This document shows, in pieces, positions 7,886 to 8,346 of a DNA stretch of 64,000 bases. Below the pieces are notes generated by a model that saw only the letters and a list, made by a program, of their open reading frames with translations, ran no database searches and was not told the origin of the DNA. Each line of letters starts with the position of its first letter. Position 1 is the first letter of the stretch. Source of the DNA: Chlorobiota bacterium (lineage in GTDB: Bacteria; Bacteroidota; Ignavibacteria; OLB7); contig JAQBOZ010000028.1 in assembly GCA_028287785.1 (NCBI GenBank), forward strand, positions 310,001-374,000, read 5' to 3'. The position numbers and the translations under genes were made by a program.

Positions 7886-7916
7886 TTGCCTTGCGCGTTT
7901 CTATGGCGTAGCTTCG
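7886..7916 (+). promoter_or_regulatory. Promoter-like element TTGC-N19-TAGCTTCG
   Basis: TTGC at 7886-7889, 19 bases, then TAGCTTCG at 7909-7916. The same layout occurs before tRNA-Leu and argC in this window. It would start transcription at about 7923, giving a transcript of about 190 nt that ends at the terminator at 8074-8110. Confidence 0.5.
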
Positions 7917-7986
7917 CTACTGATTCTTGTGCTGCGCTGGAGATGTACCAGGGAATTTTCGGCGTGTTTTTCGATCCCTGTTCAAT

Positions 7987-7998
7987 AGGAGGTGATCC
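7987..7998 (+). promoter_or_regulatory. Perfect extended Shine-Dalgarno sequence (AGGAGGTGATCC)
   Basis: Twelve contiguous bases complementary to the 16S rRNA 3' tail, far longer than the usual 4-6 bases, with optimal spacing (7 bases from GGAGG) to a GTG at 8000. Other genes in the window have only short or no such sites. Confidence 0.8.
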
Positions 7999-7999
7999 C

Positions 8000-8041
8000 G
8001 TGTCTAGTAATCTTTTGGGAGCCTCTGGTGATGCCTGCTAG
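8000..8041 (+). CDS. Candidate 13-residue peptide behind a perfect Shine-Dalgarno sequence
   Basis: GTG at 8000 to TAG at 8039-8041 encodes the short peptide VSSNLLGASGDAC (initiator read as Met). The reading frame is open upstream to an ATG at 7943, which would give a 32-residue product ending in the same sequence, but that ATG has no properly spaced ribosome site. The frame ends inside the following hairpin, so ribosomes that terminate here would affect its folding. A Cys is the last residue. Translation is inferred from the ribosome site only; no homologue is recognised. Confidence 0.4.
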   Translation: MSSNLLGASGDAC

Positions 8042-8064
8042 CGACAAGCTACAGTGGCTCCCAG
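8011..8064 (+). other. Stable RNA hairpin
   Basis: GGGAGCC (8018-8024) pairs with GGCTCCC (8056-8062), extended by CTG/CAG and an inner TAGC/GCTA stem around GACAA. It overlaps the end of the 13-codon ORF. Confidence 0.6.
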
Positions 8065-8073
8065 TGTAATCTC

Positions 8074-8110
8074 AAGGCCCCGTTTCCTCGGAAGCGGGGC
8101 CTTCTTTTTT
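8074..8110 (+). terminator. Intrinsic terminator
   Basis: AAGGCCCCG (8074-8082) pairs with CGGGGCCTT (8095-8103), with an additional TTCC/GGAA inner stem, followed by a T-rich run. This is the clearest intrinsic terminator in the window. Confidence 0.9.
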
Positions 8111-8216: not shown

Positions 8217-8346
8217 GCGCGCGGGACATCGCCCCGCGCAGCAGGGATTGCGCCCCTCCGGGGCTTGATGAAGAAAGGAGACAGCAGGATTCCGCCAGGC
8301 CCTGAAGGGGCGCCGTAGCTCCCGCATGGGGTACAACCCCATGCAC
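8217..8346. repeat. Two-hairpin GC-rich repeat, one unit in each orientation
   Basis: Unit A (8217-8272) has the GCG-rich palindrome followed by GCGCCCCTCCGGGGCTTG. Unit B (8296-8346) is the opposite orientation: CCCTGAAGGGGCGCC then a palindrome ATGGGGTACAACCCCAT. Unit B supplies two in-frame ATG codons (8326, 8341) upstream of the channel gene, which I do not accept as the start. Confidence 0.85.

Follow-up and report, generated by a model that had tools for sequence, protein, structure and literature searches.

Dual-function sRNAs of the SgrS/SgrT type are small stand-alone RNAs with their own promoter and terminator and a short ORF, and in the preQ1 and SAM-II riboswitches a pseudoknot lies upstream of the Shine-Dalgarno (SD) sequence. 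Extended SDs of the Bacteroidota, in turn, have been noted chiefly in rpsU, which they reserve for bS21-less ribosomes. In Flavobacterium, such SDs (9-13 bp, -14 to -21 kcal/mol) have been shown to be typical of rpsU and to be used by ribosomes that lack bS21 and have a free 16S tail, and the same use has been predicted across much of Bacteroidota (McNutt et al. 2023, PMC9976891). The same study reports that initiation complexes formed on rpsU mRNA with a strong SD are of unusual stability (PMC9976891).

The locus considered here lies in the window, i.e. the whole stretch of 64,000 nucleotides of a Chlorobiota bacterium that was analysed, and combines a promoter-like element, a 16S-tail complement, a 13-codon ORF and a terminator within positions 7886-8110 (+ strand). 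From our point of view, the reading to be slightly favoured is that of a tiny, possibly dual-function mRNA that encodes a conserved 13-residue peptide and carries a translation switch of its own. That the RNA belongs to a real and conserved family is a conclusion from genome comparison in which we place much greater confidence.

Layout of the locus and its Shine-Dalgarno sequence

The anatomy and its conservation were established by comparing sequences, and the features of the window RNA are as follows.

7886-7916, + strand: promoter-like element of Bacteroidota type, TTGC (7886-7889), N19 and TAGCTTCG (7909-7916)
7934-7965, + strand: pseudoknot stem 1, 11 pairs, GCGCTGGAGAT (7934-7944) with ATTTTCGGCGT (7955-7965)
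7949-7980, + strand: pseudoknot stem 2, CAGGGA (7949-7954, inside the stem 1 loop) with TCCCTG (7975-7980)
7987-7998, + strand: SD AGGAGGTGATCC, 12 bases perfectly complementary to the 16S rRNA 3' tail of the same organism
7988-8026, + strand: hairpin A, SD arm GGAGGTGATCCC (7988-7999) with ORF arm GGGAGCCTCT (8017-8026)
8000-8041, + strand: 13-codon ORF, GTG start (8000-8002), TAG stop (8039-8041), peptide MSSNLLGASGDAC
8017-8062, + strand: hairpin B, GGGAGCC (8017-8023) with GGCTCCC (8056-8062)
8039-8051, + strand: stop-codon hairpin TAGC-GACAA-GCTA
8074-8109, + strand: intrinsic terminator, 13-pair stem (8074-8103) followed by a T-run

The promoter-like element (TTGC, N19, TAGCTTCG) and the textbook intrinsic terminator (13-pair stem and T-run) that an earlier note on this DNA had described are both present. 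The former resembles the Bacteroidota -33/-7 type by likeness to the consensus, and a TAnnTT box stands at a near-equal distance from the RNA in 10 of the 12 family members, the window counted; a sigma-70 scan of the window locus found no promoter. From the position of the element, we infer a transcription start near 7922-7926. Terminator-like stems and T-rich tails accompany the relatives as well. In the window, genes for a LytTR response regulator and a cNMP-gated-type ion channel flank the locus; the relatives have other surroundings, in line with the earlier statement that the transcript is not part of the neighbouring genes. Since the flanking genes differ between clades, the window RNA is, as judged from the genomes, a free-standing small gene with an RNA of ~185 nt. 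Between terminator and ion-channel gene, at window positions 8220-8330, a G+C-rich palindromic stretch (GCGCGGGACATCGCCCCGCGC, GCCCCTCCGGGGC) looks like an interspersed repeat.

Compared with the 16S tail of its own genome, AGGAGGTGATCC is complementary over exactly 12 bases, so that the perfect match before a GTG proposed earlier holds. The predicted pairing amounts to -22.6 kcal/mol, whereas the 47 ORFs of the window reach a mean of -6.2 and at best -14.7 kcal/mol (mean of a mock region, -5.4), and the site is therefore a true outlier and the strongest predicted ribosome landing site among them, just as most genes of the window had been said to possess much weaker sites or none. In the window the exact 12-mer is found a single time, and the 4.75 Mb genome contains it at five sites in all, against none for a reversed-pattern control; of the other four, one lies opposite the 16S 3' end and three appear, from their flanks as read by eye, to be inside coding sequence. 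Across the family the 16S-tail complement measures 10-13 nt (12 in the window) and GAGGTGAT within the SD is kept in all 12 members, and SD strength varies among relatives (CGAGG in G101, AGAGG in G811, GATTC in G584).

The RNA family and its pseudoknot

Pattern and covariance searches identified 11 relatives in two classes of the phylum, which together with the window make a family of 12 RNAs, each the sole strong match in its own genome. The exact pattern AGGAGGTGATCCNRTG, searched in 294 genomes of the class, was found in G000, G003 and G004 only, the latter two being relatives from the same family as the window genome. Covariance model R1 added five relatives in the class (E 3e-13 to 2e-6), R2 two in another class of the phylum (E 1.6e-15 and 2.4e-15) and R3 two more in this second class (E 3e-19 and 1.4e-18). 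All 12 RNAs score 83-118 bits with R3, which was built from 10 of them, its own two new matches not included. The distribution is patchy (8/294 genomes of the class, 4/245 of the second class). Plain DNA similarity over 99 relatives gave a terminator-like match only, a looser 10-mer search was uninformative, and the ORF-core pattern had no match in viral contigs that would indicate a phage association. With the curated cut-offs of Rfam 15, neither the window RNA nor eight homologous loci had a match, nor did a known Rfam riboswitch or leader match the window RNA at gathering score, and a literature search on the family found no report on its function. As far as could be checked, the family is undescribed.

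The gene neighbourhood differs per clade, with rsmA in G003/G004 and other genes in f12 and in G584/G610. In G003/G004 (L021 5360-5604; L022 8283-8000) the RNA lies just upstream of rsmA/ksgA, the product of which dimethylates A1518/A1519, beside the 16S tail that is complementary to the RNA. Synteny with rsmA was rejected as a general trait, as it is confined to these two genomes. Among encoded proteins, a regulator-propeller sensor kinase with a PorZ-like match was noticed, and the C-terminal tail of a G004 protein resembles a T9SS sorting domain by eye, with no match in Pfam or NCBIfam. Together with the promoter type, these features point to Bacteroidota.

All 12 RNAs have in common an H-type pseudoknot directly 5' of the SD. 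In stem 1, 93% of the cells are paired and 8 of the 11 pairs show compensatory changes (12 sequences). Stem 1 and hairpin A together have 27 cells with both-side changes, compared to 8.0+-2.9 in shuffles and 2-8 in slid controls. Stem 2 (CAGGG/CCCTG) is nearly invariant, with three pairs fixed in 10 sequences and one pair changed from A-U to C-G. Since A5 and A6 are manual alignments with N spacers, and the covariance model served to fit A7, the pair counts lean towards the structure, which the slid and shuffled controls partly answer. Minimum free energy folding of the 5' part alone returned no pseudoknot, a fold that the program is unable to draw; the case rests on the comparison. This pseudoknot and the SD-masking pairing described below had both been overlooked in the earlier note. 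The covariance check in related genomes yielded 11 relatives in which stem 1 covaries and the SD core and the ORF are conserved, and the pattern that the note had named as contrary evidence, conserved flanks around an unconserved SD and hairpin, is the opposite of what was found, the RNA being conserved and the flanks not.

The mini-ORF, its predicted masking and competing explanations

A start, an in-frame ORF of 12-14 codons and a stop are retained in the 12 genomes, with part of the changes being synonymous, which supports the earlier idea of an independent gene for a small peptide, equipped with a promoter and a terminator. The peptides of the relatives include MNNTFMGASAAC, MSTNIGASGEAR, MKINIGASGKAC (twice), MKSNIGASGEVC, MSDSSMTWASFLNR and MSDSMTWASFLNR; the four of the second class read MSDMQKGASG[D/V/M/A]AC, and 10 of the 12 peptides end in GAS(G)xA-C/R. 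Indels within the ORF come in threes (G003/G004, G001), and even in G003/G004 the spacing between GCCTC and the stop is unchanged. Among the four second-class sequences, third codon positions account for 5 of the 7 variable columns (P=0.045), and in other clades this bias is not significant; it is modest because the RNA folds constrain the same bases. Start codons vary across the family (GTG, ATG, TTG), and in four relatives the start lies one codon further on or its homologous position carries ATC. In family f12 (L222, L223, L224, L225), ATC stands at the start-homologous place and TTG one codon later, which could represent either a rare start codon or a shifted start. Taken from these substitution patterns, the ORF is likely coding.

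In hairpin A (-15 kcal/mol), the SD and the start codon are predicted to be bound by GGGAGCCUCU of the ORF itself, which would mask them both. This pairing of the SD with GGAGCCTC of the ORF is common to all 12 RNAs, its core GAGG:CCTC being present in 12/12 with one compensatory pair (C-G/U-A/U-G). In G003/G004 the SD is masked by a different and longer helix, AAGGAGG..CCCAUGUC with GACGUGGGCCUCCUU. Hairpin B, at a predicted -22.8 kcal/mol, encloses the stop-codon hairpin and uses the same ORF arm, so that A and B are mutually exclusive. It is kept in most relatives and absent in its window form in G003/G004; covariation support for it was rejected, as there is no both-side change in relatives. 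The position of the TAG within a hairpin (TAGC-GACAA-GCTA), as claimed earlier, was confirmed, and a trace of this hairpin (TA(G)C..A-GCT) can be recognised in most relatives. Because the SD and start are predicted to be paired with the ORF's own segment, translation looks controlled, and the earlier claim of translation at a high rate is doubtful.

From this arrangement we infer a switch, a ribosome preference and a role for the peptide. During RNA synthesis, the SD and start would pair first with GGAGCCUC of the ORF, i.e. hairpin A would keep the RNA off by default; with the 3' part completed, hairpin B, the stronger of the two, would take over the ORF arm and release the SD, an exchange that the pseudoknot immediately 5' of the SD may hold or tune. 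Translation could also become possible when a ribosome with a free 16S tail competes. Given the strength of the pairing between SD and 16S tail, free-tail ribosomes, such as 30S subunits lacking bS21, should win on the window RNA. The product would be the 13-residue peptide, and an action of the RNA in trans is conceivable. It counts against this mechanism that a 12-bp SD can also trap the ribosome, as do the variable SD strength and start codons of the relatives, the weakness of the third-position bias and the lack of compensatory changes in hairpin B together with its different state in G003/G004.

One could also imagine that the RNA and not the peptide is the active agent, with ribosome loading on the mini-ORF merely setting the fold of a regulatory RNA that acts on other RNAs or proteins. 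The constraint on the RNA indeed exceeds that on the peptide, as GGA GCC TC is invariant even at third positions, clades have different N-terminal peptide halves and there is no fixed gene neighbourhood; however, synonymous changes (GGC/GGA/GGT, TGC/TGT) preserve the C-terminal GxAC and no conserved unpaired target seed was found, and we regard this explanation as possible but rather unlikely. Even less credit can be given to a sponge for the 30S subunit, in which the 12-base complement captures subunits or precursor 16S rRNA and thereby lowers initiation elsewhere. The exact complement (-22.6 kcal/mol) and the reported stability of initiation complexes on strong-SD rpsU mRNA (PMC9976891) would suit such a role, yet masking of the complement is predicted, a single short RNA facing thousands of ribosomes would need very high expression, and a sponge has no need of the start codon, frame and stop that are kept. 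As the ORF is conserved, translation is favoured over the sponge.

Equally improbable is a leader acting in cis, in which the pseudoknot would serve as ligand sensor and, with the mini-ORF and the terminator, exert attenuator- or riboswitch-like control over a downstream gene. A pseudoknot just 5' of an SD together with a terminator is a common leader layout, and in G003/G004 the RNA closely precedes rsmA/ksgA, a gene whose product methylates the 16S 3' region, but downstream and neighbouring genes differ in every clade examined and the terminator shares no sequence with hairpins A or B. A module resembling type I toxin-antitoxin systems, with a masked SD, a stable RNA and a small toxic peptide, would likewise explain the masked SD, the short ORF and the single stable-looking RNA; it is nevertheless hardly credible for a peptide that is short and not hydrophobic, at a locus where no antisense promoter or RNA was recognised. 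The reading as a switchable mini-mRNA remains the one that we prefer.

Comparison with CC2171, bS21 and other described systems

A scan of public genomes for AGGAGGTGATCCNRTGTCT returned at least 119 loci (L053-L171), almost all in records named Alphaproteobacteria and from several orders, in which a short ORF of mostly 14-25 codons stands directly behind a perfect 16S-tail complement, mostly in single copy (e.g. L064 3017-3191, L088 7250-7268, L145). When genomes were sampled without pre-selection for TCT, the longer pattern with RTG was present in 17 of 96, most with TCN (Ser) as second codon; one of the 17 is the centre genome, itself found with TCT. The alphaproteobacterial peptides are conserved within orders (MSHGSA.., VSHCH.., VSR.LERGVGT..) and different between orders. 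Two loci with the pattern, L128 and L164, lie in records named SAR92 and Gammaproteobacteria, by chance, misbinning or a wider spread.

Seven of 15 such alpha loci are matches to Rfam CC2171 (RF01867) at cut-off, which points to a conserved mini-ORF inside CC2171, a family listed as a non-coding sRNA; a literature search on the meaning of CC2171 found nothing on function. The window RNA reaches 26.5 bits with the CC2171 model, below the gathering cut-off of 75 bits, and there is no CC2171 match above cut-off in its own genome and 20 relatives or in the eight homologous loci. Common ancestry is unsupported (R3 over 60 alpha loci, best E 0.73), and a general SD-masking partner in the alphas was rejected (mean z -0.58, 15% at p<=0.05), such a partner being at most present in some clades.

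bS21 (PF01165) is encoded in five of the six genomes examined (G000, G001, G003, G025, G149) and was not found in G260 (94% complete). In the window genome, rpsU too is preceded by an SD, AGGAGGTGA, which is not as long as the one in the window RNA. At L227-L231 the rpsU SDs are long as well (AGGAGGTGA and similar), in line with bS21 autoregulation, and again shorter than the SD of the window RNA.

If the preferred reading is true, the window RNA would be a second, non-ribosomal gene with a comparably long SD, self-masked and as such a natural reporter of specialised ribosomes, and would open the idea of such ribosomes to a direct test. A further gain is an RNA family that is supported by covariation and has a conserved 13-residue peptide. 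One could speculate further, although we consider this unlikely, that a new class of RNA is at hand, in which a pseudoknot-headed, self-masked mini-mRNA senses the accessibility of the 16S tail, i.e. the state of the 30S platform, and answers with a 13-residue peptide, and that CC2171 and the related alpha mini-ORFs are an independent counterpart, making a general 'free anti-SD' sensor of lineages with low SD use.

By their sequences, the window and alpha RNAs appear alike in anatomy. Like CC2171, the window RNA has AAAGGAGGTGATCC directly before an RTG-TCT mini-ORF, a combination of 16S complement and RTG-TCT that is common to the window, G003/G004 and the second class and absent in the four f12 relatives and G001. 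Both are mini-ORF RNAs, with 14-25 codons in CC2171, mostly in single copy and with no fixed neighbourhood across orders; CC2171, unlike the window RNA, has a short leader in which a pseudoknot was not seen, and different peptides. With the SgrS/SgrT type it has in common that it is stand-alone, with its own promoter (by consensus), terminator and short ORF, but it has no recognised target or seed, and its ORF has 13 codons and its SD 12 bases. The H-type pseudoknot directly before the SD recalls preQ1 and SAM-II riboswitches, from which the window RNA differs in having neither an Rfam match nor a conserved downstream gene. Its closest likeness in the SD itself is to rpsU mRNA: a long SD to the 16S tail, far stronger than that of other genes, in what is inferred to be the same phylum, here below the -13 kcal/mol of extended SDs and an outlier among genes. 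Unlike rpsU mRNA, it encodes a 13-residue peptide and not bS21, stands alone and has an upstream pseudoknot, a self-masking ORF and a terminator. By analogy with rpsU, the SD of the window RNA is probably suited to ribosomes with an exposed 16S tail.
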